This document shows, piece by piece, positions 11,035 through 30,772 of a stretch of 46,839 bases of DNA; within the stretch, counting starts at the first letter, position 1, and each line of letters begins with the position of its first letter. The position numbers and the translations under genes were made by a program. Origin of the DNA: an uncultured Alphaproteobacteria bacterium (GTDB lineage Bacteria > Pseudomonadota > Alphaproteobacteria > MPNO01 > UBA830); the NCBI GenBank assembly GCA_913046035.1, contig CAJWSW010000013.1, positions 1 to 46,839 on the forward strand. Direction: 5' to 3'. The notes below the pieces were generated by a model. It was not told the DNA's origin, did no database searches, and was given only the letters and a program-made list of their open reading frames with translations.

Positions 11035-11110
11035 ATTTTGTTGGAATCAAGCGGTGTGGCTGCTAAATCCAGAAACACTAACTCAGTTGATCAAATCACT
11101 GGAGTACATT

Positions 11111-15176: not shown

Positions 15177-15239
15177 GATTGCTTGTTTCAAAGTCGGCCT
15201 GAGGTTAGCTTTGGCCCGCAAAACAAATTCGAAAGTGTA

Positions 15240-16571: not shown

Positions 16572-17281
16572 TGTCAGATATGAAGGGTGCTGGGGTCCTT
16601 TTTTCAGAGATGACGCCACCCCCTGGTTCGGAAGATCATTTCAACAAATGGTATAACGAACATCACATGCCAAGCCATGTGTATGGGGTCCCCGGTTTTC
16701 GTTCGGGACAACGATACAAAGTAACGCATAAACCTGATTACCTTGCGATTTATGATTTGGAATCGCCGGCGACGCTGACTGATGACGAATATATCAACCG
16801 GAAGTACAAGCCAGATGCGCCAACAAAAAAAATGCTGTCGGAGGTAATCGCGTTCACTCGTTATATAGGCGAGGAAATCGGCTTTCAGTTGCGTGACGGA
16901 CTGACGGTAGACGATGCATTAAATGCGCCGCTTATTTTCGGGGTTTTCATAAAACTACCGGATGATGTGACGGAGGAGTTTGTCAACTGGTATCAGACAG
17001 AACACTCTCCGATGGTACTTAGAAGTTCGCTGTGGCGCATGGTTCGTCATATGAAAATCGTAAATGCTGACCCGGAACCGTTTACGCACATGTTCATTCA
17101 CTATGTTGAGAGCGAGGACGCGCTGAAGAGTGACGAACTATCGGCGGCGCAGGCGACGGATTGGTTTAATACGCTATCCCAAAATGAGTGGTTTAAAACC
17201 CATTCGGTGATGTATCACAGGCTCGGTAAACGATATCACAAGGGTGAACCTAACGCCCAAACATTTACTTTAGATATTTAA
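16571..17281 (+). CDS. Tandem EthD/dimeric alpha-beta-barrel domain protein, function unknown
   Basis: The 236-residue protein appears to contain two related ferredoxin-like halves. The first (about residues 5-80) has FNKWYNEHHMPSHVYGVPGFRSG, written here as overlapping short motifs FNKWYNEHHMP and VPGFRSG; the second (about 110-200) has FVNWYQTEHSPM and SLWRMVRH at equivalent positions. The W-Y-x-x-E/T-E-H-x-P pattern is typical of EthD-like and related small alpha/beta barrels found beside oxygenases. The ATG overlaps the stop of the PLP enzyme. Role unknown; a small decarboxylase, isomerase or lactonase-like helper would fit the family, but no catalytic residues can be assigned. Confidence 0.68.
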   Translation: MSDMKGAGVLFSEMTPPPGSEDHFNKWYNEHHMPSHVYGVPGFRSGQRYKVTHKPDYLAIYDLESPATLTDDEYINRKYKPDAPTKKMLSEVIAFTRYIGEEIGFQLRDGLTVDDALNAPLIFGVFIKLPDDVTEEFVNWYQTEHSPMVLRSSLWRMVRHMKIVNADPEPFTHMFIHYVESEDALKSDELSAAQATDWFNTLSQNEWFKTHSVMYHRLGKRYHKGEPNAQTFTLDI

Positions 17282-17306: not shown

Positions 17307-17717
17307 ATGGCGATCGACCCGTCAAACAAAGATTTATATGAAGCAGGTCTTGCGGTTAGAAAGAAAGTGCTCGGTGAGGAGTACGTTAACCCCAACATTG
17401 AGAAGGGTGAAAATGATCATTTAACCGGAAAAATACAGACGATGGTCACCGAGTATTGTTGGGGTGGCGCTTGGACCGAAGATACACTGGATCATAAGAC
17501 CCGCAGCATGCTTAACCTTGGTATTCTCACCGCGCTGGGTAAGATGCAGGAATTAAAAGCTCATACGCGTGGCGCATTGCGCAATGGTTGCACGGTTGAG
17601 GAGATAACGGAGGTTCTTGCACATGCGACTGTGTATTGCGGTATCCCCGCGGGTGTCGATGCATTTCGCAGCGCAAGAGAGGCACTGGACCAGGCTGAAA
17701 AAGAGGGCCTGCTGTAG
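17307..17717 (+). CDS. Carboxymuconolactone decarboxylase-family protein (PcaC-like)
   Basis: A 136-residue single-domain protein of the CMD family. Family landmarks are EYCWGGAWTEDTLDHKTRSMLNLG near residues 49-72 (shown in parts as EYCWGGAW and LDHKTRSMLNLG), LKAHTRGALRNGCTVEEI near 92, and the HATVYCGIPAGVDAF block near 115. PcaC decarboxylates gamma-carboxymuconolactone in the protocatechuate branch of the beta-ketoadipate pathway; no other pca genes are in the window, so the substrate may differ. It lacks the CxxC pair of AhpD-type peroxidases. An AAGAGG ribosome site lies six bases before the ATG. It is last in the hyuBA operon. Confidence 0.85.
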   Translation: MAIDPSNKDLYEAGLAVRKKVLGEEYVNPNIEKGENDHLTGKIQTMVTEYCWGGAWTEDTLDHKTRSMLNLGILTALGKMQELKAHTRGALRNGCTVEEITEVLAHATVYCGIPAGVDAFRSAREALDQAEKEGLL

Positions 17718-17743
17718 GCTTCAGTGATACTGTAATAGCCTAC
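17714..17743. terminator. Possible bidirectional hairpin over two convergent stop codons
   Basis: GTAGGCT at 17714-17720 pairs with AGCCTAC at 17737-17743, and inside it CAGT at 17722-17725 pairs with ACTG at 17729-17732. The stem includes the stop codons of the convergent CMD-like and maleate-isomerase-like genes. There is no clear T-tract on either side, so termination is uncertain. Confidence 0.35.
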
Positions 17744-18467
17744 CAAGCCCCTGGATAGGATCAGAAATGCCTGCATCTCTTAGCGAGTGCCATAGTGTGG
17801 CGGAGTTACTAGAAATCACGGGCTTTTTAAGCTTTGCTTCCAGAGGTTCAATTGAATCAAAAGTATTGAAGTCCGTGCAGCATATCAGCAATGCCTCCGC
17901 GTCTCGATGGTCGACAGAGCAAGCGTGTGTGAAGACATCGGCTGGCGGGACGCGAGAGATTTTCTGAATTTCTTCGAGTGATGTATCAAGGCTAAGGCCG
18001 GCGGTCGCAAGAACCTCAACGCCATGGTCACTCAAATAATGGGCTTCGTGTTCGTTGGTCTCGGGTGTATATGGCGATGCCATGACTATCTTGGTTGCGC
18101 CGAGTGCATCAAGAGCAGCAGTTATTGCCTGCGCTGTCGAATTTGCCGGAACATTACCTGCGTCAGTCATCGTTTTTAGTAACCGGTCCGACGGGCAGGC
18201 CATCGAAGCTGCAGTGCAGGCGTATGTAGCATAGTCGACATTGCAAGCCGCCAGGTCATGCATAGCCTTGGTTAAGTCGTTAAGCATCCTTTCGAAATTG
18301 TCTTTCGCAGGATCGGAATGCAGCGGTGAGCGGGTGAAATGGAAACTGACCCCATCTGGGGCGGCCTTATGAAATTCGGCTTCATTAACCGTATTGCTCG
18401 CCGGAACGATTACCCCAATTTTAGAGCGCCACCCGATTGGCCGTATCTTTTCAAGCGACGTCATCAT
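17721..18467 (-). CDS. Maleate isomerase / arylmalonate decarboxylase-like protein (Asp/Glu racemase superfamily)
   Basis: The 248-residue protein has the two cysteine-bearing motifs of this superfamily: an N-terminal-domain Cys in YATYACTAASMA near residue 84, and a second in LLICCTDFNTFD near residue 198. The opening IGVIVPASNTVNEAEF is the typical substrate carboxylate-binding loop of maleate cis-trans isomerases. Maleate isomerase makes fumarate at the end of nicotinate-type pyridine degradation; arylmalonate decarboxylases and hydantoin racemases are close relatives, so the reaction is open. An AAGGGG ribosome site precedes the start. It is convergent with the CMD-like gene and divergent from the FAD hydroxylase. 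Confidence 0.8.
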   Translation of the reverse strand: MMTSLEKIRPIGWRSKIGVIVPASNTVNEAEFHKAAPDGVSFHFTRSPLHSDPAKDNFERMLNDLTKAMHDLAACNVDYATYACTAASMACPSDRLLKTMTDAGNVPANSTAQAITAALDALGATKIVMASPYTPETNEHEAHYLSDHGVEVLATAGLSLDTSLEEIQKISRVPPADVFTHACSVDHRDAEALLICCTDFNTFDSIEPLEAKLKKPVISSNSATLWHSLRDAGISDPIQGLGRLLQYH

Positions 18468-18571: not shown

Positions 18572-19771
18572 ATGTCTGACGAACCTCGCGTTTTAGTTTC
18601 AGGGGCTGGTCCGGTTGGCTGCTGCGCGGCACTTTATCTCGCGCAGAGGGGAATAGCTGTGACACTGGTCGACGCCGCGTCAGAGTTGCCGGAAGACCTT
18701 CGAGCGTCCACATTTCACCCTCCAACCCTCGATATGCTAAAAGAACTTGGTGTCGTGGAGAAGGTTATAGAGCAAGGTATTGTCTGTCCTATCTGGCAAT
18801 ATCGGGATGCGCGGGAGGGTGTCGTAGCGGAATGGGACCTCTCTGTTTTGGAAAATGACACTGATTACCCCTATAGGGTCCAGTGCGAGCAATTTAAGCT
18901 AACGAGAATAATTGTTTCCGAACTTGATAAGATGGATAACGTTGAAGTGCTTTTTGACGTCAAGGGCACTGGTGCGTCCCAAAATGAAGATGGCGTATCG
19001 TTATTCGTTGAAACACCAGATGGTCCCAGAACCTTACTGGGAAAATATCTGATCGCGGCCGACGGTGCATCTAGCGCAATTCGTGTTTCCCAGGGAATTG
19101 ACTTTCCCGGTTTGACTTTCCCCGAGCTATGGCTGTGTACAAGCTCGGAATTTAATTTTGAGGATCACTTTGAAAACTTAGCGCCGATAGCATACGTGGC
19201 CGATCCAGATTTTTGGTTCGTATTTGTTCGTGTTCCGGGAATGTGGCGGCTCCTTCTTCCTTCCCTTCCGGGCGAGACGGCAGATACGCTAGTTTCTGAC
19301 AAAACCGTGCAGGAGCGTATGCAACAGGTATGTGCGATTGATGGCAGCTATGAGACTTTCCACAGGACCGCATACTCAGTTCATCAGCGGGTAGCAGAAA
19401 CATACAGAAAGGGTCGTATCTTTCTTGCAGGAGACGCGGCCCACATCAATAATCCGCTGGGCGGTATGGGGATGAATGGAGGGATCCACGACGCGATGAA
19501 CCTCTCTGAAAAGATTGTAAAGGTGTGGAACGGTATTGCCGACGAAAGTGAACTTGATAAGTATGACGCCCAACGTCGCCCGATAGCGATAGATTACGTT
19601 CAGCAAACCACCATACGAAATAAAGCGATGTTAGAAGAGACTGATCCAGATGTAAGGCGCTCGAAGCACAATGAGATGAGCAAGACAGCCAATGATCCAA
19701 AACTAGCGAGAGAGTATTTGCTTCAATCGTCCATGATTACAGCTCTAAAACAAGCTGAGGCATTAGCATAA
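18572..19771 (+). CDS. FAD-dependent aromatic hydroxylase-type monooxygenase (MhpA/UbiH-like)
   Basis: Group A flavoprotein monooxygenase of 399 residues. It shows the ADP-binding VSGAGPVGCCAALYLAQRG near residue 9, the NADPH/FAD DG motif in IAADGASSAIR near 161, and the flavin-ribityl GD motif GRIFLAGDAAHINNPLGG near 285. These enzymes add one oxygen to an activated aromatic or heteroaromatic ring using NAD(P)H; some relatives open pyridine rings. A GGAG ribosome site lies close upstream of the ATG. It stands alone between a divergent maleate-isomerase-like gene and the convergent dctP gene. No C-terminal thioredoxin-like domain as in phenol hydroxylases is present. Confidence 0.87.
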   Translation: MSDEPRVLVSGAGPVGCCAALYLAQRGIAVTLVDAASELPEDLRASTFHPPTLDMLKELGVVEKVIEQGIVCPIWQYRDAREGVVAEWDLSVLENDTDYPYRVQCEQFKLTRIIVSELDKMDNVEVLFDVKGTGASQNEDGVSLFVETPDGPRTLLGKYLIAADGASSAIRVSQGIDFPGLTFPELWLCTSSEFNFEDHFENLAPIAYVADPDFWFVFVRVPGMWRLLLPSLPGETADTLVSDKTVQERMQQVCAIDGSYETFHRTAYSVHQRVAETYRKGRIFLAGDAAHINNPLGGMGMNGGIHDAMNLSEKIVKVWNGIADESELDKYDAQRRPIAIDYVQQTTIRNKAMLEETDPDVRRSKHNEMSKTANDPKLAREYLLQSSMITALKQAEALA

Positions 19772-19820: not shown

Positions 19821-20840
19821 TTAACGTACATCCTGCCTAGCAGCAGCTGCTTTAAGGATTGGATAAAGCCGCCGAATATCGGCATTCTTATGGTTTAAGA
19901 AGACTTTATCCCCGAGGGGCTGAAGACGACCCATATACTCTTTTTGCTCGGCATCTGAGAAATAAGCGACCTTCGCTCCAGATTTTTTCCACTCCGCAAT
20001 CATCTTTGTGACAAAGCTCTCAGACCTTGCAGATGCCCAGTTTCCAAGCTCGTCGGCAGTATCCAAAACAATAGCCCTATGTTCTTTCGACAACTTGCTC
20101 AACCAAACTTTGCTGAAGGCCGAAATGCATGGGATATAGTATCCATTCGTAATGGTAAGATTGTCGGTTACTGTTGGAAACTTAGCTTTAGCGGCAACAA
20201 CGAGGCTAGTCCTTGCCCCGTCCACGACCCTGCGCTGGATCGCAGGCACTACCTCGGTGAACGGAATTGGAACACCTGTGGCTCCAAGCGTTGCGACGCT
20301 CAGACGTTCTATTTCCGTTGCAAGGACGCGGATCTTCAGCCCTTTGAAGTCCGAAATCTTGGCGATTGGCTTCGTTGCCATGTAAGAGGCGCCGTCATAA
20401 ACCCATAGTCCGGATATTGTGATACCCTTGCTTTCCCCTAGGCTGGTAAATAGTGGTTTAAAGCTAGGGTCGTTGAGGCTTCTGTGCGCGTGTTGATGAT
20501 CGGCAAAAAGGCCGGGCACGTCCGCTACCTGAAACGCCTTATTGACGCCCTGCAGGAACCCCGGCGGTGCAAAGAAACCTTCCTGCGATCCTAGTTGGAT
20601 GCCCTCGATTTGCCTTGGGATCTTACCTAATTGGCTTGTAGGGAATACACGTCCCTTAATTTTACCGTTAGACCGTTTGTTCACTTCAGCTACAAATTTC
20701 GTCGCATAATCATGCTGCGGATCTGCAGTTGTTGGGTAGCCGATTTTCATGTCGATTTGCGCCGACGCTATCGATGCGACACCGAATGATACGACTACGC
20801 CAAGCGATGCGGCAGCAATTTTTCTAATTCCGTTTTTCAT
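19821..20840 (-). CDS. TRAP transporter substrate-binding protein, DctP family
   Basis: A 339-residue periplasmic binding protein. The N-terminus MKNGIRKIAAASLGVVVSFG followed by VASIASAQ is a clear Sec signal peptide with cleavage expected after ASA near residue 27. The mature part begins with an IDMKIGYPT strand and contains the DctP elements FVAEVNKRSNGKIKGRVFP, the central FKGLKIRVLATEIE block with its conserved Arg that holds substrate carboxylates, and GYYIPCISAFSKVWLSKLS. It therefore probably captures an organic acid. No DctQ or DctM membrane genes are in the window, so the transporter partner must lie elsewhere. It is followed by a strong terminator. Confidence 0.92.
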   Translation of the reverse strand: MKNGIRKIAAASLGVVVSFGVASIASAQIDMKIGYPTTADPQHDYATKFVAEVNKRSNGKIKGRVFPTSQLGKIPRQIEGIQLGSQEGFFAPPGFLQGVNKAFQVADVPGLFADHQHAHRSLNDPSFKPLFTSLGESKGITISGLWVYDGASYMATKPIAKISDFKGLKIRVLATEIERLSVATLGATGVPIPFTEVVPAIQRRVVDGARTSLVVAAKAKFPTVTDNLTITNGYYIPCISAFSKVWLSKLSKEHRAIVLDTADELGNWASARSESFVTKMIAEWKKSGAKVAYFSDAEQKEYMGRLQPLGDKVFLNHKNADIRRLYPILKAAAARQDVR

Positions 20841-20917: not shown

Positions 20918-22048
20918 TTAATCACGTTGGAGCGGAGATCTCTGTCCGGCTTGCTCCATAAGTGGGAGCACTTCTTCAATCCATTGCTTGCATTCAGTTT
21001 TATAATCGACCCATGAAATCAACATTCCGTCGACACCTATATTTACCAGTTTGCCGATCTCGTCGACTATTTGTTCCGGTGTGCCTATTAAAGGATAACC
21101 GCCATGCCCAGCGATGAAATGGAAACGAAATTCGTCCAGAACATCTTGGGGAAGAGTTTTTGATTGCATCCCGAAGATTTCAAGTAGGTTGTTTACTGCC
21201 TCGTAGTCGCCTTTATCAACTGCGTAATATTTCAAATAGTCTTGGGCTTCTTTTTCCGTTTCTCGGCAAACAACGTAAACGTGGATCCAGCTTTTTACGT
21301 CTCTTCCGGCGTTTCGCGCCATGTTTTTCAGGTGCGAAATTTGCGACTTTCCGCCCTCGATATCCCGCTCTTTGAGAATGACGAAGTTCATGTCAGCCTG
21401 TGTCGCTGCAAATTCTTGCCCTGCTTCCGATCCGCCTGCGTTCATGACGGGCGGCATTGGAGATTGTAACGGCTTAGGTTCACTCCACACGTTTTTAGAG
21501 TCGAACCAACGTCCTTTAAAATTAAATTCTTCGTCATGGGTCCAGATTTTGCGCACAAAGTCTAACCATTCTGTCGCGTATTCGTATCGCACGTCATGTT
21601 CGTTCCAGGCGGCACCAAACATTTCAAATTCATTTTTAAACCATCCGCAAACGACGTTTAGCGCAAATCGGCCGCCTGAAATGTGATCGATCGTGGCACA
21701 TTGCTTCGCTGCCGCGACTGGATGAGTTAACGGGACATGAGACGTCGAAAAAATGCAAGAATAGTTGGTGATTGCGGCAACCGCTGATGCCCAATTGTAC
21801 GTCTCAAACGTGCGGTTGTTGAAATTGGTGGGACCCCCGTACCCGCGCCAGCGGGCGACCGGCAATAAGACTTCGAACCCTGCCGCGTCTGCCATCATCG
21901 CTACTTCCCGCGTGTCGGGCCAGTTCATTTCCCATGAGCCCTCCGCTTGCGTAATTGTTGAGCCATGTGAGCAGTTCATTGCGATGATGCCGATTTGCAT
22001 CTTGTTTGAGTTAAACAGGGGATTTGTGTCGTTAGAACGAATCTGCAT
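20918..22048 (-). CDS. LLM-class flavin-dependent monooxygenase, RutA-like
   Basis: The 376-residue protein is a bacterial luciferase-like flavin monooxygenase. It shares distinctive stretches with pyrimidine oxygenase RutA: RWRGYGGPTNF near 67, AAITNYSCIFSTSHVPLTHP near 91, and ATIDHISGGRFALNVVCGW near 118, plus NAGGSEAGQEFAATQADMNF near 207. RutA cleaves the uracil ring at an amide bond with reduced FMN, and trigonelline ring opening also uses an LLM enzyme. A ring-opening role here is inferred. It needs a flavin reductase, and no dedicated one lies nearby. It is divergent from the hpaB-type gene and upstream of dctP in the same direction. Confidence 0.83.
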   Translation of the reverse strand: MQIRSNDTNPLFNSNKMQIGIIAMNCSHGSTITQAEGSWEMNWPDTREVAMMADAAGFEVLLPVARWRGYGGPTNFNNRTFETYNWASAVAAITNYSCIFSTSHVPLTHPVAAAKQCATIDHISGGRFALNVVCGWFKNEFEMFGAAWNEHDVRYEYATEWLDFVRKIWTHDEEFNFKGRWFDSKNVWSEPKPLQSPMPPVMNAGGSEAGQEFAATQADMNFVILKERDIEGGKSQISHLKNMARNAGRDVKSWIHVYVVCRETEKEAQDYLKYYAVDKGDYEAVNNLLEIFGMQSKTLPQDVLDEFRFHFIAGHGGYPLIGTPEQIVDEIGKLVNIGVDGMLISWVDYKTECKQWIEEVLPLMEQAGQRSPLQRD

Positions 22049-22259: not shown

Positions 22260-23828
22260 ATGGCAACTAAGGCTATCGAATTAGACAACACCGAGGTTGA
22301 TTGTGGAAAACAACCCATATGTGGTTGCATCGGCTTCTGCCGCGGTGAAGCCTTTGGAACCGGCGTAAGAACTGGTGAGCAGTACGTGGCAGGGATCCGG
22401 GACGACGGTAGACACGTGGTGCACAACGGGGAAATTATTTCTGACGTGACAACACACTCTGCGTTTGAAGGAGCAGTGAAATCAGTTGCCAGCCTCTATG
22501 ATAATGCTGCCGACCCGGAGAACCGGGAGTTAATGACGTACACGTCGCCAACAACGGGTGACCCGGTTAATCGACATTGGGCAATGCCTCGAAGTAAAGA
22601 AGAACTCATAGCTCGGCGGAAGGCGCTCACAAAAACGTCTGAGTTGACGTTAGGTCTTATGGGCCGCAGCCCAGACCATGTTGCGGGTTTTTTCGCCGGA
22701 TATGCGATGGCGCCGGAAGTATTGGCGCGGGGCGGACAGCAATACGCTGACAACGCTATCAAATTTTACGAATTCTGTCGTGATAACGATATCTACGTAG
22801 CCTACACGATAGTGCCGCCTCAAATCGATCGGACAAAACCAGCCCATCAACAGGAGCCGCCGGATTTGTACGCGGGTATCGTCGATGAGCGCGATGACGG
22901 AGTGATCATCCGAGGTGCACAAATGCTGGGAACAGGCGCTGCTCTCTCAGACTTTGTTCAACTAAGCACGATACATCCAATGAGGCAGGGCGATGAAAAC
23001 TATGCGATTTCGGTCGCGGTACCCTGTAATGCGCCGGGTGTAAAAATATTCTCGAGGCGCTCCTACGCTTCCGCGGCAAGCAGCGTCTTTGACTATCCGC
23101 TTGCCACCCGCTTCGACGAGACTGACTCATTGTTCGTATACGATGACGTATTTGTGCCCTGGGAAAGGGTGTTTGTTTATAAAAATGTCGATGTCGCTCG
23201 CGCACAGTGGTTCGAAGCCCCTGCTCACATTATGGGCAATAGTCAGGCCCAAATCCGCTACATGACCAAGCTGAGATTTCTTGTTGGGCTCGCAAAGAAA
23301 ATCACAGATATGAATGGAACCGGTTCGTTGCCACCCGTTATTGGTGAACTCGGCAAGCTTGCGACTTATGCGACGATGTATGAGGGATTAGTTTACGCTC
23401 AAGAGGCAGAATGCTGGACAAACGATAATGGATATGTGCTGCCGAGCATGCCGCACATTTATGCAAACATGAACTTGCAGTCTGAAATAAATCCAAAGCT
23501 TTTGGATATCGTTCGAGAATTATCGGGTGGCGGGTTAATCCAGCTTCCGTCTTCGGTTGAAGACCTCAGAAACCCAGAAATACGCGATCAGGTAACGAAG
23601 TACGTTAAGTCGCCAGGTGTTGCAGGTGAAGACCGTATTAAACTTCTCAAGCTGGCATGGGATATGGTGGGCTCTGAATTCGCGGGTAGGCACGAGCAAT
23701 ATGAAAAGTTCTATGCTGGCGCTCCGTTTATTGTGAAGACACACGCGCACCGTACATACAATTGGGATAAGGCGACTTCGCTGGTTGATTACGCTCTGTC
23801 CGGCTATGACATAAACGGTCGGAAGTAG
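22260..23828 (+). CDS. HpaB/PvcC-type FADH2-dependent hydroxylase
   Basis: A 522-residue member of the 4-hydroxyphenylacetate 3-hydroxylase large-component family (acyl-CoA-dehydrogenase-like fold). Seen are RTGEQYVAGIRDDGRHVVHN near residue 38 (family GxxYIxSLRDGRxVY-like start), AYTIVPPQIDRTKP near 180, IIRGAQMLGTGAALSD near 219, the VFVPWERVFVYKN block near 298, and a C-terminal SEFAGRHEQYEKFYAG. These enzymes hydroxylate phenols, pyrroles or other rings with reduced FAD supplied by a partner such as HpaC. No HpaC-like reductase is in the window. An AGG ribosome site precedes the ATG, and DUF1185 and enamidase-like genes follow in the same direction. Confidence 0.88.
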   Translation: MATKAIELDNTEVDCGKQPICGCIGFCRGEAFGTGVRTGEQYVAGIRDDGRHVVHNGEIISDVTTHSAFEGAVKSVASLYDNAADPENRELMTYTSPTTGDPVNRHWAMPRSKEELIARRKALTKTSELTLGLMGRSPDHVAGFFAGYAMAPEVLARGGQQYADNAIKFYEFCRDNDIYVAYTIVPPQIDRTKPAHQQEPPDLYAGIVDERDDGVIIRGAQMLGTGAALSDFVQLSTIHPMRQGDENYAISVAVPCNAPGVKIFSRRSYASAASSVFDYPLATRFDETDSLFVYDDVFVPWERVFVYKNVDVARAQWFEAPAHIMGNSQAQIRYMTKLRFLVGLAKKITDMNGTGSLPPVIGELGKLATYATMYEGLVYAQEAECWTNDNGYVLPSMPHIYANMNLQSEINPKLLDIVRELSGGGLIQLPSSVEDLRNPEIRDQVTKYVKSPGVAGEDRIKLLKLAWDMVGSEFAGRHEQYEKFYAGAPFIVKTHAHRTYNWDKATSLVDYALSGYDINGRK

Positions 23829-23913
23829 GGCAATATTTAAAAGGGTTGCTCCTCTAGATTGGGGCGGGAGATAAGATAAAAGCGCTCAAAATCGTATAAA
23901 AGGAGAGCCCTTG

Positions 23914-24489
23914 ATGACAGTCCGACGCCTTTATACTGTTGTGGAGGAAACCCTCCATGATCGTGGGCAAATAAGAGACGAGCCACTGCGTAAGGTGGCT
24001 GTCGTTGCAGTCATTAATAACCCATTTGCCGGACATGGTTACGTCGAAGACTTAAGCGCTTTAACTGATGCCAGTGTTGAACTCGGGACAAAAATCGCGG
24101 AAATGGGTGCTTCGCAGATGGCACCCTATACCGTTGACTCATACGGCAAGGCTGCGCTTATCGGAACGGCCGGTGAACAAGAACATGGAGTGGCATGCCT
24201 TACGACAGTCTACGGGAATGTTCTGCGTGACGCAGTTGGCGGCGGAAAGGCTTGGATTTCGTCTATGACAAAAAGGGTGCGCCCCGGTGAGCATGTGGAT
24301 ATACCGCTCGCTCATAAGGACGCATTATTTGTGCGGTCACATTATGATGGAATGACGATCATGGTTCCGGATGCACCGTTGGAGGACGAAATCTGCGTTA
24401 TTTGCTGTTTCGCGAACCGAGGTCGGCTAAATCACCGCGTCGGCGGGCCGAGTAAAGAAGATATCGTTGGTAACGATGGTCTGAGATGA
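23914..24489 (+). CDS. DUF1185 (AA_synth, PF06684-type) protein
   Basis: The 191-residue protein matches what I know of the DUF1185 'amino acid synthesis' family: an N-terminal LYTVVEETLHDRG strand-helix, NNPFAGHGYVEDLSAL near residue 36, SYGKAALIGTAGEQEHG near 75, KRVRPGEHVDIPLAHKDALF near 123 and RSHYDGMTIMVPDAP. Structures exist for the family, but its chemistry is not established to my knowledge. The conserved His, Glu and Asp residues in these blocks suggest an enzyme. Start is ATG 23914, seven bases after AGGAGA; a TTG one codon earlier is possible. It sits between the HpaB-type and enamidase-like genes with 10 bp to the latter, so it is probably part of the same pathway. Confidence 0.8.
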   Translation: MTVRRLYTVVEETLHDRGQIRDEPLRKVAVVAVINNPFAGHGYVEDLSALTDASVELGTKIAEMGASQMAPYTVDSYGKAALIGTAGEQEHGVACLTTVYGNVLRDAVGGGKAWISSMTKRVRPGEHVDIPLAHKDALFVRSHYDGMTIMVPDAPLEDEICVICCFANRGRLNHRVGGPSKEDIVGNDGLR

Positions 24490-24499
24490 GGGGGGCTAT

Positions 24500-25702
24500 A
24501 TGAAATCGGCAATCGTTAACCTCAAAACGATCGTCTCCGGCGATTGGCGAAAGCCTTTTGCTAAAGGCGATTCCATCGTGATGAACAATGGGAAGATCGT
24601 GAAGGTAGGAACGATCAGCGCAAAGGAAGAGAAATCTTGCGACGTTGTACTCGACGCGGGTGGAATGACCGCAATGCCTGGCTTAATCGATTCGCAAGTA
24701 CATGTGGCATTTGCCGATTATACGCCGCGCCAGCGAACCATCGGATTTTTGGAGAGCTATCTTCACGGCGGTGTTACAACATCTATTTCCGCAAGCGAGG
24801 TTCATGTTCCGGGGCGACCGACAGATCCAGACGGTGTTGTTGCCCTGGCGGTTGCAGCTAAAAAAAGTTTCGATAATTATTCGCCAGGTGGAATGCATGT
24901 GCACGCTGGCGCCGTTATCCTTGAACCCGGTCTGACGCAGAAACACTTTAATGACGCGGCTAAACAGGGCGTCTGGCTTGCGAAGGCAGGTTTTGGAAAA
25001 TTCAAATCACCTTTTGACTATAAGCCATATGTGGCTATGGCAAAGAAGGCGGGAATGATCGTAAATGTTCATACCGGCGGCGCGTCAATTCCGGATTCCT
25101 CGCCGATTACCGGAGATCATCTTTTGCATATGCAGCCAACCGTTTCTTTTCATATTAACGGAGGGCCCGTCGCAATGCCTGACAAAGACTTCGCCCGCAT
25201 AATTAATGAGAGCGATATCGCAATGCAGATTTGTCAGGCGGGGAATATAAGGACGGCAATAATGTGCCTCAACATGGCGATTGAGGCGCAGGAATTCGAC
25301 CGATTGATCTTCGCAACCGATACCCCGACGGGCACCGGAATGATGCCGCTTGGCATGATCAAAACAGTGGTTGAAATGGCTTGCCTAACTGATCATGCGC
25401 CTGAAATGATGGTGTGTGCTGCGACCGGGAACAACGCCAACGTTTACAAGCTAAATACCGGTTTCATCAAGCGTGGCAAAGACGCTGATATCATGATTGT
25501 TGACGCACCATTGGGTAGTACGGGAAAGACTGCGCTAGATGCAATTAAACATGGCGATTATCCGGCGATCCCTGCTGTTTTCACTGACGGTATTCCTCGG
25601 TTTATTCACCGGTCCCGTAATACCCCGCCATCAACACGGAAGATGCGACTAAAGCGGAACACAGTGTTGCAAGAGTTTGAACCTGGCCGACACACGCTTT
25701 GA
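24500..25702 (+). CDS. Enamidase-like amidohydrolase (nicotinate-fermentation Ena homologue)
   Basis: The 400-residue protein resembles, over its whole length, enamidase of Eubacterium barkeri, which opens 6-oxo-1,4,5,6-tetrahydronicotinate to 2-formylglutarate and ammonia. Shared blocks by recall are ADYTPRQRTIGF near 74, LHGGVTTSISAS near 89, VPGRPTDPDG, VNVHTGGASIPDSS near 191, SFHINGGPVAMP near 214, FATDTPTGTGMMPLG near 270 and AATGNNANVYKLNTG. The amidohydrolase HxH metal motif is altered: the segment near residue 66 reads IDSQVHVA, with Gln in place of the first His. The active site may therefore hold one metal or none. GAGGGGGG precedes the start. Close homology is certain only at family level; activity on a cyclic enamide is inferred. 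Confidence 0.8.
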   Translation: MKSAIVNLKTIVSGDWRKPFAKGDSIVMNNGKIVKVGTISAKEEKSCDVVLDAGGMTAMPGLIDSQVHVAFADYTPRQRTIGFLESYLHGGVTTSISASEVHVPGRPTDPDGVVALAVAAKKSFDNYSPGGMHVHAGAVILEPGLTQKHFNDAAKQGVWLAKAGFGKFKSPFDYKPYVAMAKKAGMIVNVHTGGASIPDSSPITGDHLLHMQPTVSFHINGGPVAMPDKDFARIINESDIAMQICQAGNIRTAIMCLNMAIEAQEFDRLIFATDTPTGTGMMPLGMIKTVVEMACLTDHAPEMMVCAATGNNANVYKLNTGFIKRGKDADIMIVDAPLGSTGKTALDAIKHGDYPAIPAVFTDGIPRFIHRSRNTPPSTRKMRLKRNTVLQEFEPGRHTL

Positions 25703-25730: not shown

Positions 25731-25759
25731 TGTACACAATGTCCACTTAGTGTACACAA
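25731..25759. promoter_or_regulatory. Probable IclR operator (TGTACACAA repeats)
   Basis: TGTACACAA occurs at 25731-25739 and again at 25751-25759, a 20-bp period (two helical turns). TGTACAC at 25731 and GTGTACA at 25750 also form an inverted repeat. The block lies at about -3 to +25 of the promoter and ends 2 bp before the iclR ATG, the position expected for autorepression. It also leaves no room for a normal ribosome site. Confidence 0.65.
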
Positions 25760-25761
25760 CC

Positions 25762-26493
25762 ATGCTGCAAGCACGCAACGACAACCCGAAAACTGTTCGC
25801 TCCATAGAGCGGGCGATAGACGTTTTAGTGTGTTTTGATAATGCTACGCCGGAGCAAACCGTTACCGATCTGCAAAAACGGACTGGCCTCAGTCGGCCGA
25901 CGCTGTATCGGATACTCTGTACGCTCGAGGGCAAGGGCATGATCCGTTCCTCTGGCGCCCCACAAAAATTTTCACTCGGACATGAGGCAAGCCGTCTCGC
26001 GGCGAGTTGGATAGGAGTAAATGAACTTTTAAGGGTAGCAGGACCCGTTCTCCGTCGTTTGTGGGAAAAAACGGAAGAGACTGTGGCTTTGTTCGTCGCA
26101 ACTAATAACGAACGAAAGATATGTATTGAAGAAATTGAAAGCCGCCATGCGCTGACCTTTAAACGGGGTGTTGGTTTTACCGAGAACCTGTCAGTTGGCG
26201 CTTCTGGAAAGGCGATGCTGGCTTTTACCGATGCCGGTCGGAATGATCCGGAGTATGGCGACGTTAGGCGAACTGGTGTTCGAGTTTCTAAAGGGGAAAT
26301 TATTGAGGGTGCGGTAGCCATCGCTGCTCCTGTTTTTGACTATGATGGTTTGGTTAAGGGGAGCGTCTGTATTTTTGGCCCCGAAGTTCGATTGTCAGAC
26401 GACAGGCGTGACACATGTATTGCGTATGTTCGGGAAGCTTCCCGAGAAATTTCATCCGCTTTGGGATTTACCAAACCGGCGGTGGCTGAATAG
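25762..26493 (+). CDS. IclR-family transcriptional regulator
   Basis: The 243-residue protein has the N-terminal winged helix (VRSIERAIDVLVCFDNATPE, then TDLQKRTGLSRPTLYRIL near residue 38) and the C-terminal IclR effector domain (RGVGFTENLSVGASGKAMLA near 136, GAVAIAAPVFDYDGLVKGSV near 189). The family controls aromatic and heteroaromatic catabolism and usually senses a pathway acid. ATG 25762 was chosen because it follows directly on the operator-like repeats; an in-frame GTG at 25750 lies inside them. The stop is 10 bp before the first Rieske gene, so regulator and oxygenase are co-transcribed from the promoter at 25699. Likely self-regulated. Confidence 0.9.
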   Translation: MLQARNDNPKTVRSIERAIDVLVCFDNATPEQTVTDLQKRTGLSRPTLYRILCTLEGKGMIRSSGAPQKFSLGHEASRLAASWIGVNELLRVAGPVLRRLWEKTEETVALFVATNNERKICIEEIESRHALTFKRGVGFTENLSVGASGKAMLAFTDAGRNDPEYGDVRRTGVRVSKGEIIEGAVAIAAPVFDYDGLVKGSVCIFGPEVRLSDDRRDTCIAYVREASREISSALGFTKPAVAE

Positions 26494-26503
26494 GAGAGAA
26501 ACC

Positions 26504-27838
26504 ATGGATGCATTATCGAGCGATATCCGCGTTGCAGAAATGATTGATGATAGGTCCGCTGACGGCATCTTTCGCGTCGACCGCGACATATATCTCAACC
26601 CAGAGGTTTTTGAGGCGGAGCTCAAAGCGATTTTTGAATCCAATTGGATTTTTCTCTGTCATGAAAGTCAGGTTAAGAAACCGGGTGACTATTTTGCAGC
26701 TTATCTTGGTCGGCAACCGGTGTTCGTTCATCGTCAGGAAGACGGAGGCCTCAAAGGGTTTTTGAATGCGTGTTCGCATCGTGGAGCAATCTTAACGCCA
26801 ACCGCACAAGGCAATGCAAAGACGATTACCTGTCGATTTCATGGGTGGACTTATAAATGCAGTGGCGAATGTCTGCGCATAAAGGAAGAAGAGGGGGGCT
26901 ATGGCAAGGACTTTGACAGAAGTGTTTACGACCTGCGGGAAATTGGTGCCATAGCAAGTTATAACGGCTTCGTCTTCGGCAGCCTATCGGCGGAGGTTCA
27001 ATCACTTGAGGATTTCTTGGGGGAATCGAAAGCCTTCATCGACTTCGTTTCCCACCAATCGCCAGCCGGCCTGGAAGTACTCCCAGGAAGCCAAAAATAC
27101 ATTGTGGGCGGAAATTGGAAGATGTCGACCGAGAATGCGGTCGACGGATACCATACCAGCACAGTTCACCGGATTTTTGCCAGCACTGTCAAACAGAGAG
27201 AAGTCCGCGAGGGTTATGAAGGAATGATGCGGACTGAGACTGGTCGCCTTTCGAAGAAAAATGTCCGTAACGGTTGTTACGATTTGGGCCAAGGACACAT
27301 GGTTATTTGGGCTGATCGTGATCCGGTCTCAACGTCGCCCCTCTCAGAGGCCGAGGAACGCCTCGAACGCGAATATCCGACTGGAAAGGTAAACTGGATG
27401 CTCCGTCGAGGACGCAATCTGATTATTTTTCCTTCGCTAATGATCAATGATTTTGCTGCGACCCAAATTCGGACATTCAGGCCCATATCAGCAGATGAGA
27501 CTGAGGTGACGATATACTGCCTTGCCCCGTCGGATGAGAGTAAAGAGGCGAGGTATGCCCGGCTCCGGAAATTTGAGGATTTTTTTATGGCGAGCGGAAT
27601 GGCCACCTCAGATGACGTAGTGGCTCTGGAAGCGACACATCAGGGTAGTCACGCTCGGGTTGTAAAATGGGGCGAATTTCATCGTGGTTTGGGTTCAATT
27701 ATCGAGGGGCCGGATGATGTCGCAGAAGAGGGGGGCTTTAAACCTGCAACTAGCAACACAAGCTGGGATCATGAGACTTTATATTACAGTTTTTATCGGA
27801 GGTGGCGCGACCAGCTCGCCGCTGTGAGAGGGGAATAA
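26504..27838 (+). CDS. Rieske aromatic-ring dioxygenase large subunit, copy 1 (BenA/AntA-like)
   Basis: The 444-residue alpha subunit has an N-terminal Rieske domain with CSHRG and CRFHGWTYKC, supplying the Cys-His and Cys-His ligands of the [2Fe-2S] cluster. In the catalytic domain, ENAVDGYHTSTVH carries the bridging Asp and the two iron His, and GMATSDDVVALE carries the third iron ligand Asp. All catalytic residues are kept. It resembles benzoate/anthranilate dioxygenase alpha subunits. The ATG at 26504 follows a GGAG by seven bases; the frame is open farther upstream inside iclR but that part is not oxygenase. The stop lies 1 bp from copy 2. Substrate probably an aromatic or heteroaromatic carboxylate. 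Confidence 0.92.
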   Translation: MDALSSDIRVAEMIDDRSADGIFRVDRDIYLNPEVFEAELKAIFESNWIFLCHESQVKKPGDYFAAYLGRQPVFVHRQEDGGLKGFLNACSHRGAILTPTAQGNAKTITCRFHGWTYKCSGECLRIKEEEGGYGKDFDRSVYDLREIGAIASYNGFVFGSLSAEVQSLEDFLGESKAFIDFVSHQSPAGLEVLPGSQKYIVGGNWKMSTENAVDGYHTSTVHRIFASTVKQREVREGYEGMMRTETGRLSKKNVRNGCYDLGQGHMVIWADRDPVSTSPLSEAEERLEREYPTGKVNWMLRRGRNLIIFPSLMINDFAATQIRTFRPISADETEVTIYCLAPSDESKEARYARLRKFEDFFMASGMATSDDVVALEATHQGSHARVVKWGEFHRGLGSIIEGPDDVAEEGGFKPATSNTSWDHETLYYSFYRRWRDQLAAVRGE

Positions 27839-27839
27839 A

Positions 27840-29159
27840 ATGGATGGAAGTATACTCACTGACAATCTGTCCACGTTGGTAGATGACCGGGTCGATGAAG
27901 GCATGTTCCGCGTCGACAGGTCTGTCTACATAGATGAAAGCATTTTTGAGCAGGAGATTTCCAATATCTTCGAAAAATGCTGGATATTTCTATGTCACGA
28001 GAGCCAAGTGGCTAATCACGGTGATTATTTCTGGACTGAGATCGGTCGTCAGCCGGTTTTCGTGCACCGTCAAGAAGATGGCTCCCTCAAGTGCTTCATT
28101 AATGCGTGTTCGCATCGTGCGGCTATTCTAACACCGTTCCGGCAGGGTAATGCCAAGACACTTACCTGCCGTTTCCACGGCTGGACCTACAAATGCTCTG
28201 GGAATTGCGTCGGTATTAAGAACGAGGAGGATGGCACTGACCGGAGCAGATTTGACCTGCGTGAAATTGCCAGCCTTGCTTCTTATCAGGGATTTATTTT
28301 TGGTAGCCTAAGCGCTGATGTGCCGGCGCTAGATGACTGGCTGGGAGCGGCAAAAATCTGGATCGACCTGATGGCGGTACAATCGCCCGAGGGTCTTGAG
28401 GTCGTGCCGGGTAGCTCAACCTACAAGACCGATGGTAACTGGAAGCTGCAAGCTGAAAATAGTGTCGACGGCTATCATGTTTCTACTGTTCATCGGGTCT
28501 TCGCACACACCATAGCTGCAAGGGAAAGCAAAGGCGAATATACCGGCATCGGAAAGACAGAGTCCGGCCGCATCTCGGGCGGTGTTCCCACTGCTTCTTA
28601 CGACCTGGGTAACGGGCACATGGCTATTTGGGCCCAGCACACGACGCCTGAAGCCCGGCCAATATGGGAGGCAAGGGAGCGGCTAAAAAACGAGCTTCCA
28701 CCTAAGCAGGTGGAGTGGATCCTGACGAAAGGCCGCAACCTATATATTTTCCCAAATGTAATGTTGATGGATAATCCGTCGACGCAGATACGGGTTATGA
28801 AACCAATATCGGCGAACCAGGTCGATATTAGCGTCTATTGCGTTGCGCCCAAGGGAGAGAGCACCAAAGCACGGGCTGGTCGCTTGAGAAAATTTGAGGA
28901 TTTTTATCTGACTGCTGGAATGGCAACATCAGACGACCTTGCCGCGCTAGAGGATACACATGAAGGGTCGATGGCCCGGAGTGCCAAGTGGAGCGAGTTC
29001 AATCGCGGCCTCAAAAGCATAACCCATGGCGCCGATGCCGATGCCAGAGAACTCGGCTTTGAACCTCAGGCCTGCACCGATAATTGGAACCACGAAGTCT
29101 TGTATCATGGATTTTACCGGCACTGGCTCAGAATGATGAAAGGAGAATTCCAAGGATGA
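27840..29159 (+). CDS. Rieske aromatic-ring dioxygenase large subunit, copy 2
   Basis: The 439-residue protein is clearly paralogous to copy 1. It shares long blocks such as WIFLCHESQV, GRQPVFVHRQEDG and CRFHGWTYKCSG. The Rieske ligands are intact (CSHRA, with Ala where copy 1 has the usual Gly, and CRFHGW), as are the iron ligands in ENSVDGYHVSTVH and GMATSDDLAALE. Both copies should therefore be catalytically competent. Its ATG comes 1 bp after the stop of copy 1, and its own stop overlaps the beta-subunit ATG (ATGA). The pair may form alternative or mixed hexamers with the single beta subunit. Differences concentrate in the catalytic domain, suggesting different substrate preference, but this is inference. 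Confidence 0.92.
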   Translation: MDGSILTDNLSTLVDDRVDEGMFRVDRSVYIDESIFEQEISNIFEKCWIFLCHESQVANHGDYFWTEIGRQPVFVHRQEDGSLKCFINACSHRAAILTPFRQGNAKTLTCRFHGWTYKCSGNCVGIKNEEDGTDRSRFDLREIASLASYQGFIFGSLSADVPALDDWLGAAKIWIDLMAVQSPEGLEVVPGSSTYKTDGNWKLQAENSVDGYHVSTVHRVFAHTIAARESKGEYTGIGKTESGRISGGVPTASYDLGNGHMAIWAQHTTPEARPIWEARERLKNELPPKQVEWILTKGRNLYIFPNVMLMDNPSTQIRVMKPISANQVDISVYCVAPKGESTKARAGRLRKFEDFYLTAGMATSDDLAALEDTHEGSMARSAKWSEFNRGLKSITHGADADARELGFEPQACTDNWNHEVLYHGFYRHWLRMMKGEFQG

Positions 29160-29644
29160 CCGATTTGCAACAAGAGGTCACTAACCTGATTTATCAGGAA
29201 GCGACACTTCTTGACCGACATCATTGGGATGAATGGATAGACTTGTACACCGAGGATGCTGTCTACTGGGTGCCATCCTGGGCAAATGAAGAAGAGACGA
29301 CTGATAATCCTGAAATGAATCTTAACTTGATATACCTGCGTAATCGCGGGGGGCTTGAGGATCGTGTTTTTAGGATCGAAAGTCGGGATTCATACGCTTC
29401 CGTGCCCCTCGACCGGACAGTGCACGTTGTCGGCAACGTGTTAACGGGTAATGAAAAGGCCGGTGAGGTCGAAGCGACCGCTAATTGTATCATACATTCA
29501 TATGGCAAGAAGGGTGGTCTGACACGTGCCAGCCTCTATGATTTTAAGTTGCGTCGCGAGGATGGCGAACTCAAAATTAGCCAGAAAAAAATTACATTTA
29601 TCGACGACCGGCTCGAAGGGCCGATAGACGTTTATCACCTCTGA
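29156..29644 (+). CDS. Rieske dioxygenase small (beta) subunit, BenB-like
   Basis: The 162-residue protein has the SnoaL/NTF2-like beta-subunit fold: IYQEATLLDRHHWDEWIDLY near residue 12, followed by EDAVYWVPSWANEE, and the C-terminal ISQKKITFIDDRLEGPIDVY. BenB and AntB have the same pattern and length. The subunit is structural in alpha3beta3 hexamers. It is the only beta subunit for two alpha genes. The ATG overlaps the stop of copy 2, which implies coupled translation; an upstream in-frame start inside that gene is not needed. Confidence 0.92.
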   Translation: MTDLQQEVTNLIYQEATLLDRHHWDEWIDLYTEDAVYWVPSWANEEETTDNPEMNLNLIYLRNRGGLEDRVFRIESRDSYASVPLDRTVHVVGNVLTGNEKAGEVEATANCIIHSYGKKGGLTRASLYDFKLRREDGELKISQKKITFIDDRLEGPIDVYHL

Positions 29645-29749
29645 ATACAGGTGTAAGTGCTATAGACTTCTAGGAAAGCGGTTTGTCTCTCCGAATTGAT
29701 TTGGCGCTATATGGAAGCTAGATCATTTAGGTGATTAAGGGGTTAATTG

Positions 29750-30772
29750 ATGAATACGCATAACGTGACGTTGGTGTTCGAAGACGGCAGGGCCGTTAGA
29801 TTTGATGCGAACGAAGACGATAACCTTTACTTTGCGTGCCTGAAGAACAAGGTGCGGCTTTTGACCGACTGCCTGGAAGGCGCTTGTGCAACCTGCAAGG
29901 GGCTTTGCACTTCCGGAACATACTATCTAGACGAATATACTGATGAGGCGCTGACAGCCGAAGAATTCGCCAAGCGTGAGGTGTTGACATGCCAAATGCA
30001 TGTTACTTCCGATTGCGTGATTGAATTTCCCTACGAATCTAAGCTCGCTCTCAAGTCAAAGCCGGACGTCCGAATGGCTACCGTGGTTGCAGCCGATATG
30101 GTTTCGTCGACGGTTTCTCAATTGGTGGTGAAGCCTAATTCTGACCAAGAGCCGATACCTTTTCTACCTGGCCAATACGTACATCTTGCAGTTCCCGGAA
30201 CTGACGAGCATCGCTCATATTCTTTTGCGAATGCGGCCTCTGAAACGGGAGCGTACACATTTTATATTAAGATCCTCGAAAACGGCGAGATGAGTAACTA
30301 CTTGACCAGTAATGTAAAATCCGGTGACGAAATGACGGTGGAGGGACCGTTTGGTCGGTTTTATATGCGGCCCATTAATCGGCCAATCCTTATGGTTGCA
30401 GGAGGTACAGGCCTCGCGCCGATGCTTAGTATGCTTGATACTATGGCAGGGCAGGACAACAAAGGTTTTCCGGTGCATCTGTTGTACGGCGCAAACCATG
30501 CTGAAGAATTGTTCGGTCTCGATCAAATTGCCGGTTATGGAGAGCAGGGGCTAGATTTGTCGTTGGAAGTTAGTGTAGTCGACGCTGATAACAGTTGGGA
30601 GGGTGAAAGTGGACACGTGACTGACCTGTTGCGTCCTGATCTGTTAAATGGTGGTGATTGCGATGTTTACTTGTGTGGCCCGCCGCCGATGATCGACGCT
30701 GCCAATGCCTGGCTTGTTGAGAATGATATGAGGTCAGCGCAGATATATTCTGAAAAATTTGTCGCAAGCTAA
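29750..30772 (+). CDS. Rieske dioxygenase reductase, BenC-like (ferredoxin + FAD/NAD domains)
   Basis: The 340-residue electron-transfer protein passes electrons from NADH to the oxygenase. The N-terminal plant-type ferredoxin domain has the cluster ligands in CLEGACATC (Cys-x4-Cys-x2-Cys) and a fourth Cys in VLTCQMH. The FAD domain shows HRSYSFANA, the NAD domain GGTGLAPMLSML, and the C-terminus YLCGPPPMIDAAN. This order and length match BenC/AntC. Start ATG 29750 lies seven bases after AAGGGG. The 105-bp gap after the beta subunit has no evident terminator, so all four oxygenase genes probably share one transcript. Confidence 0.93.
   Translation: MNTHNVTLVFEDGRAVRFDANEDDNLYFACLKNKVRLLTDCLEGACATCKGLCTSGTYYLDEYTDEALTAEEFAKREVLTCQMHVTSDCVIEFPYESKLALKSKPDVRMATVVAADMVSSTVSQLVVKPNSDQEPIPFLPGQYVHLAVPGTDEHRSYSFANAASETGAYTFYIKILENGEMSNYLTSNVKSGDEMTVEGPFGRFYMRPINRPILMVAGGTGLAPMLSMLDTMAGQDNKGFPVHLLYGANHAEELFGLDQIAGYGEQGLDLSLEVSVVDADNSWEGESGHVTDLLRPDLLNGGDCDVYLCGPPPMIDAANAWLVENDMRSAQIYSEKFVAS

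Follow-up and report, generated by a model that had tools for sequence, protein, structure and literature searches.

The DUF1185 (PF06684) gene at positions 23914-24489 lies on the forward strand of the window, i.e., the whole analyzed stretch of 46,839 nucleotides from an uncultured alphaproteobacterium, between a gene for an HpaB-type flavin hydroxylase and a gene for an enamidase-like amidohydrolase. The constant partner of DUF1185 in the clade of the window protein is the enamidase-like enzyme, and not the HpaB hydroxylase. While the PF06684 family as such was already known, its arrangement in one cassette with HpaB and a K-type enamidase-like enzyme is a new variation. No paper on a link between DUF1185 and enamidase was listed in searches of the open-licence part of PMC.

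Results

The DUF1185 reading frame is open from the ATG at 23914 through the stop codon at 24489, with an in-frame TTG at 23911, and it encodes a protein of 191 amino acids. The protein matches 175 of the 175 positions (1-175) of the PF06684 profile (E 1.1e-62), with 211 bits compared to a curated cut-off of 27, and it matches the DUF1185 structures 2qtp and 3byq with E values of 1.9e-40 and 7.6e-24, respectively. Its predicted model has a pLDDT of 92.8 and superimposes on 3byq with a Z score of 27.7 and an rmsd of 1.6 over 187 residues. The gene is thus confirmed to be a real, full-length member of the family. The Pfam search gave PF06684 only, and thus no match of the window protein to the Rid family or to the chorismate mutase family. 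The genome of the window (2.78 Mb in 127 contigs, completeness 91, contamination 4) contains four PF06684 genes. Another copy in this genome is located on contig C9 (L043, about 9.4-10.0 kb), with an LLM oxygenase on one side and a UbiD-type decarboxylase on the other.

Upstream of the DUF1185 gene, after a gap of 85 bp, lies the gene for the oxygenase subunit of an HpaB-type two-component flavin hydroxylase (22260-23828, forward strand), which carries the domains PF11794 (HpaB_N) and PF03241 (HpaB) and which in a PDB search was closest to true 4-hydroxyphenylacetate 3-monooxygenases (E 5e-82). Downstream, after only 10 bp, follows the gene for the enamidase-like amidohydrolase (24500-25702, forward strand; 400 amino acids; Amidohydro_1). 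Both the placement between these two enzymes and the 10 bp spacing had been proposed in an earlier note on this DNA, and both hold. The sole PDB sequence match of the amidohydrolase at E 1e-5 or better is the enamidase of Eubacterium barkeri (2vun), and the similarity spans residues 2-383 of 400 (E 8e-105), so that the enzyme of the E. barkeri nicotinate pathway is a full-length homolog of the window neighbor.

A comparison of 91 enamidase sequences revealed two types. In 48 of them a "GE(V/I)GLG"-type motif with Glu is present, as in E. barkeri (one begins with AE), while in the other 43, including the window enzyme, this Glu is replaced by Lys (K-type). In addition, the first His of the HxH motif is Gln (QxH) in the window enzyme and many of its kin. 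The HxH and Glu164 positions of the E. barkeri enamidase are presumably metal ligands, as in the amidohydrolase superfamily. The metal site of the window enzyme, with QxH and Lys instead, may therefore differ, and because of these replacements at the presumed metal positions we call it enamidase-like rather than an enamidase proper. The E. barkeri enamidase, in work ascribed to Kress in 2008, reportedly carries out ring opening and deamination alone. Two enamidase matches in other genomes (G010:C1:100619-101815 and G600:C292:16176-17372) contain one in-frame stop each, and the adjoining PF06684 gene is without stops.

Further downstream on the forward strand are genes for an IclR-family regulator (25750-26493; PF01614/PF09339), a Rieske oxygenase alpha subunit 1 (26336-27838; PF00355/PF00848), a benzoate dioxygenase-like Rieske oxygenase alpha subunit 2 (27840-29159; PF00355/PF00848; 444 bits with TIGR03229, below the 781-bit cut-off), a Rieske oxygenase beta subunit (29084-29644; PF00866), and a ferredoxin-FAD-NAD oxygenase reductase (29747-30772; PF00111/PF00970/PF00175). 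The Rieske set thus has two tandem alpha-subunit genes (26336-29159), followed by a single beta-subunit gene. On the other side of the cassette, the reverse strand encodes a luciferase-like (SfnG/RutA-like) flavin monooxygenase (20918-22048; PF00296; matches to 8t0u and RutA), a TRAP (DctP) solute-binding protein (19821-20840; PF03480), and an arylmalonate decarboxylase / maleate isomerase / EutA-type protein (17721-18467; PF17645; below the EutA equivalog cut-off). The forward strand of this region encodes a single-component FAD monooxygenase (18572-19771; PF01494; best PDB matches PnpA 6ain and HspB 7da9), a carboxymuconolactone decarboxylase-family (CMD) protein (17307-17717; PF02627), a DUF4286 protein (16556-17281; PF14114), a class III aminotransferase labeled as glutamate-1-semialdehyde aminotransferase-like (15183-16571; PF00202), and the hydantoinase A / oxoprolinase (13128-15176; PF01968, PF05378) and hydantoinase B / oxoprolinase (11054-13120; PF02538) proteins. 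The gene order of the window is shared with a locus of the same genus (L044), in which the CMD gene is unlabeled, and two loci of the same family (L047, L048) keep most of it within shorter contigs. A DUF4286 gene occurs near the DUF1185-enamidase pair in 14 of 60 enamidase-linked loci, in two cases (L034, L235) together with an FAD monooxygenase. The region 1-1412 is AT-rich (G+C 0.337 over 1-2000 versus about 0.49 elsewhere) and carries a nucleotidyltransferase gene (CTP_transf_like; NadD-like on inspection) as well as a ProA-like fragment with 49% identity to the genome's other copy on contig C26; this end of the contig is probably foreign or the result of a mis-join.

Co-occurrence of the two families was analyzed with a threshold of E 1e-25 or better against the window protein for the enamidase family, in 398 Pseudomonadota genomes (sample 1) and in a class-wide sample of 289 genomes (sample 2), with two enamidase genomes common to both. 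PF06684 is present in 59 genomes of sample 1 and the enamidase in 20, all of which also have PF06684, at a distance of 56-14,042 bp in every case. The respective numbers for sample 2 are 57 and 23, again with PF06684 in 23 of 23 enamidase genomes, and the two genes are at most 15 kb apart in 18 of them. Taken together, 41 of 41 distinct Pseudomonadota enamidase genomes have PF06684, and the pair is found within 15 kb in 36 of the 41. In one genome (G595) a single contig carries both genes at a distance of 1.03 Mb, and in four others (G007, G479, G494, G669) they are on different contigs. The hypergeometric values are 1.1e-18 (sample 1) and 8.5e-19 (sample 2) by genome, which ignores kinship, and 1.1e-9 and 1.3e-13 by genus, not corrected for phylogeny. 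The link between the enamidase and PF06684 exceeds chance. Of 25 plasmid records with an enamidase, 22 recur in the list of PF06684 records, which comprises 388 of 72,556 records. The three enamidase-bearing plasmids on which PF06684 was not found belong to the Actinomycetota Prescottella and Rhodococcus qingshengii and to the archaeon Haloarcula, and are among the most distant relatives listed. Conversely, 39 of the 59 PF06684 genomes of sample 1 have no enamidase, and the relation from enamidase to PF06684 is therefore one-way and not universal. A fusion of DUF1185 and enamidase was considered for two loci (L067, L074) and rejected, as no long DUF1185 reading frame has an enamidase among its top matches listed.

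For the analysis of gene neighborhoods, genes were labeled by phmmer against 83 chosen reference proteins, and the counts of neighbors by linkage class, of redox partners, of tree rows and for the 80 loci are based on domain coordinates. The 80 loci nearest to the window protein, the best 80 of 576 confirmed relatives, are biased toward its branch, and contig ends truncate many of them; they come from Pseudomonadota, Actinomycetota, Chloroflexota, Thermodesulfobacteriota, Bacillota, Acidobacteria, NC10, Rokubacteria, Planctomycetes, and a Caldarchaeum record. The fetched DNA contains an enamidase in 62 of these best 80 loci, within 3 kb in 53 and within 300 bp in 34. Of the 43 K-type enamidases in the loci selected through DUF1185, 39 are encoded within 200 bp of DUF1185 and on the same strand. 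The redox partners of these 43 within 8 kb vary: HpaB alone was found in seven cases, an FAD monooxygenase alone in seven, a xanthine-dehydrogenase-type enzyme alone in five, a Rieske oxygenase alone in three, combinations in 11, and none in 10. As DUF1185 was the criterion by which these loci were selected, the reverse direction is tested solely by the counts in genomes and plasmids.

A phylum-wide view was obtained with 60 PF06684 regions from sample 1, a set that omits some PF06684 matches of the same genomes. In 48 of the 60 regions an oxygenase, an alpha/beta hydrolase, an enamidase, a 6-hydroxynicotinate reductase or UPF0280 is encoded within 4.5 kb, and 12 of the 60 have none of the class-defining neighbors. 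Most of the ring-modifying neighbor families are much rarer at 5.5-10 kb than within 4.5 kb; the respective near/far numbers are 23/5 for SSADH, 21/4 for alpha/beta hydrolase, 20/0 for 6-hydroxynicotinate reductase, 16/4 for LLM oxygenase, 15/0 for UPF0280, 15/0 for flavin reductase, 6/3 for enamidase, 5/0 for FAD monooxygenase, and 1/0 for HpaB. A tight link of DUF1185 to ring-modifying enzymes had been claimed in the earlier note, which named a neighborhood survey of PF06684 as a refutation test; the survey favored the link, and the genome counts gave a sharper partner, the enamidase.

The tree, built from 206 PF06684 proteins, has many weakly supported inner forks and several long branches that join one another, and therefore only its large groups were used. 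The clade of the window protein comprises 57 of the 206 rows (support 97), of which 42 are enamidase-linked. The LLM-linked copies form one separate clade of 22 rows (support 99), outside of which the window protein lies. The copies linked to 6-hydroxynicotinate reductase (6HNR) are found mainly in two distant clades, which represent the two members of tandem pairs. Such tandem or nearby pairs of distinct PF06684 genes occur beside 6-hydroxynicotinate reductase and UPF0280 in L042, L045, L084, L126, L133, and other loci, and perhaps they form a hetero-oligomer or catalyze two successive steps. Within 8 kb of DUF1185, UPF0280 is encoded in 55 of the 58 loci of the 6HNR class (L039, L089, L096, L120, and others), a class that is defined by the presence of 6HNR or UPF0280. 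A UPF0280-DUF1185 fusion was rejected, since none of five long reading frames that were checked matched a non-DUF1185 reference. A further branch of eight rows (support 100; L206, L207, L210, L213, L216, L217) has neighbors that are mostly unlabeled by the reference set.

The alignment of the 206 sequences contains nine near-invariant polar residues, K79, E88, E90, H91, R105, R141, H143, R171, and R175. Three of them (K79, R105, R175) do not vary in any of the 206 sequences. The number of sequences that share the residue is 204 for E88, H91, and H143, and 200 for E90 and R171. Column 97 is His in 149 sequences and Thr in the window protein, and column 173 is His in 102 sequences and Asn in the window protein. 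Positions 97 and 114 are Thr and Trp in the window protein and in most members of its enamidase-linked clade, while most other branches have His and Ile/Leu/Tyr. Together with the enamidase-like partner, these two residues distinguish them from 3byq (BB2672) and 2qtp (SPO0826; PF06684 "AA_synth"), with which the window protein shares the family, the fold, and the conserved residues. According to the excerpts of the structural report, BB2672 has the buried interface salt bridges Glu90-Arg176 and Glu92-Arg172, and in 3byq such buried salt bridges of the dimer interface occur along with a histidine cluster that borders a cavity of about 1000 cubic angstrom (PMC2954203). The corresponding residues E88, R175, E90, and R171 are all present in the window protein, and several of the conserved polar residues match the described salt bridges and a part of the histidine cluster. 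In the same excerpts, the authors read the interface as a control of oligomerization and sought a ligand at the N-terminal interface (PMC2954203). Judged by residue conservation, the C-terminal cavity would be the favored candidate for the active site.

Fold searches add little to the question of function. Beyond DUF1185 the matches of the predicted model are weak (best Z 6.6), with Z scores of 6.0 for chorismatase, 5.6 for Rid, and 5.5 for chorismate mutase, and the unrelated PurM/ThiL folds score 6.2-6.6 in the same search. Rid/RutC-like folds (Z 4.9-5.6) are thus level with unrelated folds. AtzD/barbiturase cyclic-amide hydrolases, an early idea, are absent from the fold matches listed, an absence that is uninformative.

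Discussion

The earlier note had pointed to a catalytic step on a heterocycle or its opened product. The second part of this proposal fits better than a ring-hydroxylation step, because the steady partner is the enamidase-like enzyme and not the hydroxylase, and the conserved residues suggest that DUF1185 is catalytic. As DUF1185 stays constant while the ring-activating enzyme changes, we place it at the step common to these loci, the hydrolysis of the enamide or the product thereof. The initial product of this hydrolysis is an enamine or a hydroxylactam, and tautomerization and loss of ammonia are still needed. The reading that we favor, with a confidence that falls somewhat short of even, is that DUF1185 acts at this step and forms the open carbonyl compound from an enamine/imine or hydroxylactam. 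In the scheme that we infer for the substrate, the order of steps, the intermediate handled and the catalysis by DUF1185, the cluster would degrade a nitrogen heterocycle or a comparable cyclic amide. The ring would be converted to a cyclic enamide or a hydroxylactam by a redox enzyme, in the window probably the HpaB-type hydroxylase. The ring C-N bond would be hydrolyzed by the enamidase-like enzyme, and DUF1185, through general acid-base catalysis, would help at this same step to form the open-chain carbonyl acid and ammonia. Homarine was considered as substrate and dropped, because there was no gene link.

The choice of the step from enamine/imine (or hydroxylactam) to carbonyl was guided by the Rut pathway of E. 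coli (RutA/RutB/RutC/RutF), in which RutC, annotated as 3-aminoacrylate deaminase, handles such an intermediate. The layout of the LLM-linked branch is analogous, with an LLM oxygenase, a flavin reductase, a hydrolase, a small BCM/Rid-fold-like protein, and a semialdehyde enzyme; an alpha/beta hydrolase and a semialdehyde dehydrogenase are encoded in 17 of 17 LLM-linked loci. Rid-type genes (RutC query) are rare near PF06684, i.e., they were found in seven of 169 loci, the nearest 2.6 kb from DUF1185. RutC itself differs from DUF1185 in that a sequence relation was not found in the Pfam search, and the fold comparison gave a Z score of only 4.9. The nicotinate pathway of E. barkeri offers a second comparison. 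In anaerobes such as Sporomusa and Desulfobacteraceae, genes for a xanthine-dehydrogenase-type enzyme, enamidase, 6-hydroxynicotinate reductase, UPF0280, and DUF1185 occur together; in contrast to the E. barkeri pathway, no 6-hydroxynicotinate reductase is labeled beside the window DUF1185.

The statement of the earlier note that no reaction of the family has been proven needs a footnote. According to one study, the homolog TgnF of trigonelline breakdown stimulates the TgnE-dependent oxidation of succinic semialdehyde, while for their own homolog, HcdD of 7-hydroxycoumarin catabolism, the authors saw no such stimulation (PMC7913881). Like the window gene, both are DUF1185 homologs in ring-breakdown operons by the account of this study (PMC7913881), and both pathways differ from the window in their partner enzymes. 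The LLM-linked branch was taken as the putative TgnF type. The ability of the E. barkeri enamidase to open and deaminate the ring alone, as reported, counts against the proposed enamine/imine step, as do the three enamidase-bearing plasmids on which PF06684 was not found, the five genomes in which the two genes are far apart or on different contigs, and the weak fold matches outside DUF1185. Further points speak against it: two thirds of the PF06684 genomes of sample 1 (39/59) lack an enamidase, SSADH is encoded near only six of 60 enamidase-linked copies, the TgnF effect as excerpted involves no nitrogen, and HcdD, without such an effect in the same excerpts, belongs to a coumarin pathway (PMC7913881).

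The TgnF effect would agree with another function, namely, that DUF1185 leaves the enamide untouched and opens cyclic aldehyde acids, from hydroxylactone/lactol or hydroxylactam to the free aldehyde, for a downstream dehydrogenase or reductase. This would include the nitrogen-free coumarin pathway, and SSADH is encoded near 17 of 17 LLM-linked and four of four FADmono-type loci. However, the scarcity of SSADH near the enamidase-linked copies extends to the 6HNR-linked loci (4/58), and the lack of effect reported for HcdD in the excerpts (PMC7913881) also speaks against it, so that we regard this function as unlikely, albeit worth serious consideration.

More doubtful is that DUF1185 is a tautomerase that acts upstream of the enamidase and turns a hydroxylated ring, e.g., a hydroxypyrrole or conjugated lactam, into the hydrolyzable cyclic enamide. 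The 6-hydroxynicotinate reductase yields the enamide directly, and yet it is encoded near 57 of the 58 loci of the 6HNR class as defined above; furthermore, an enamidase is found within 8 kb in none of the 17 LLM-linked copies. The conserved polar pocket and the order hydroxylase-DUF1185-enamidase in the window would fit a tautomerase, as would the BCM-like fold described in the structural excerpts (PMC2954203).

A non-catalytic partner, i.e., a hexameric scaffold or stabilizer of the hydrolase, would explain the tight pairing with one hydrolase family, and the excerpts describe a hexamer in solution for two members, BB2672 and SPO0826 (PMC2954203). It is slightly less probable still, since DUF1185 also occurs with alpha/beta hydrolases and, as tandem copies, with other enzymes, and the invariance of K79, R105, and R175 in all branches is more typical of an active site. 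A service to the HpaB hydroxylase, e.g., hand-over or protection of its product, is suggested by the adjacency in the window and in several other lineages, but is very improbable, because HpaB is encoded within 8 kb in only 13 of 60 enamidase-linked loci and other redox enzymes replace it. The 2010 "amino-acid synthesis" reading, a role in (branched-chain) amino-acid metabolism with a histidine cluster that senses pH or salt, is not supported and hardly credible: Liv-type transporters occur near the 6HNR-linked branch, but in the phylum sample LivF/G is not more common near (11/60) than far (13/60), and the pH-sensor idea is weakened because two of the four cluster histidines (columns 97 and 173) are not conserved.

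An extension of the proposed enamine/imine step to the whole family is considerably more speculative than the step itself and, as a whole, rather unlikely. PF06684 might be a widespread, unrecognized enzyme class that finishes the opening of enamide rings, from enamine/imine or hydroxylactam to the open carbonyl acid, in many N-heterocycle pathways, and that would correspond to RutC in function without belonging to the Rid family. The HpaB-DUF1185-enamidase cassette of the window might then represent a novel aerobic route, in which the ring degraded may be pyrrole-carboxylate-like and the K-type enamidase-like enzyme depends on DUF1185.

Structures of PF06684 proteins have been available since 2007-2008, yet there is no agreed reaction, and databases still carry the name "amino acid synthesis". 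The near-strict pairing with the enamidase and the at least three repeated pathway settings restrict the function to a single type of step and point to candidate intermediates. For bacteria from the sea and from soil, this would aid the assignment of clusters for the catabolism of nicotinate-, pyridine-, and pyrrole-type compounds.
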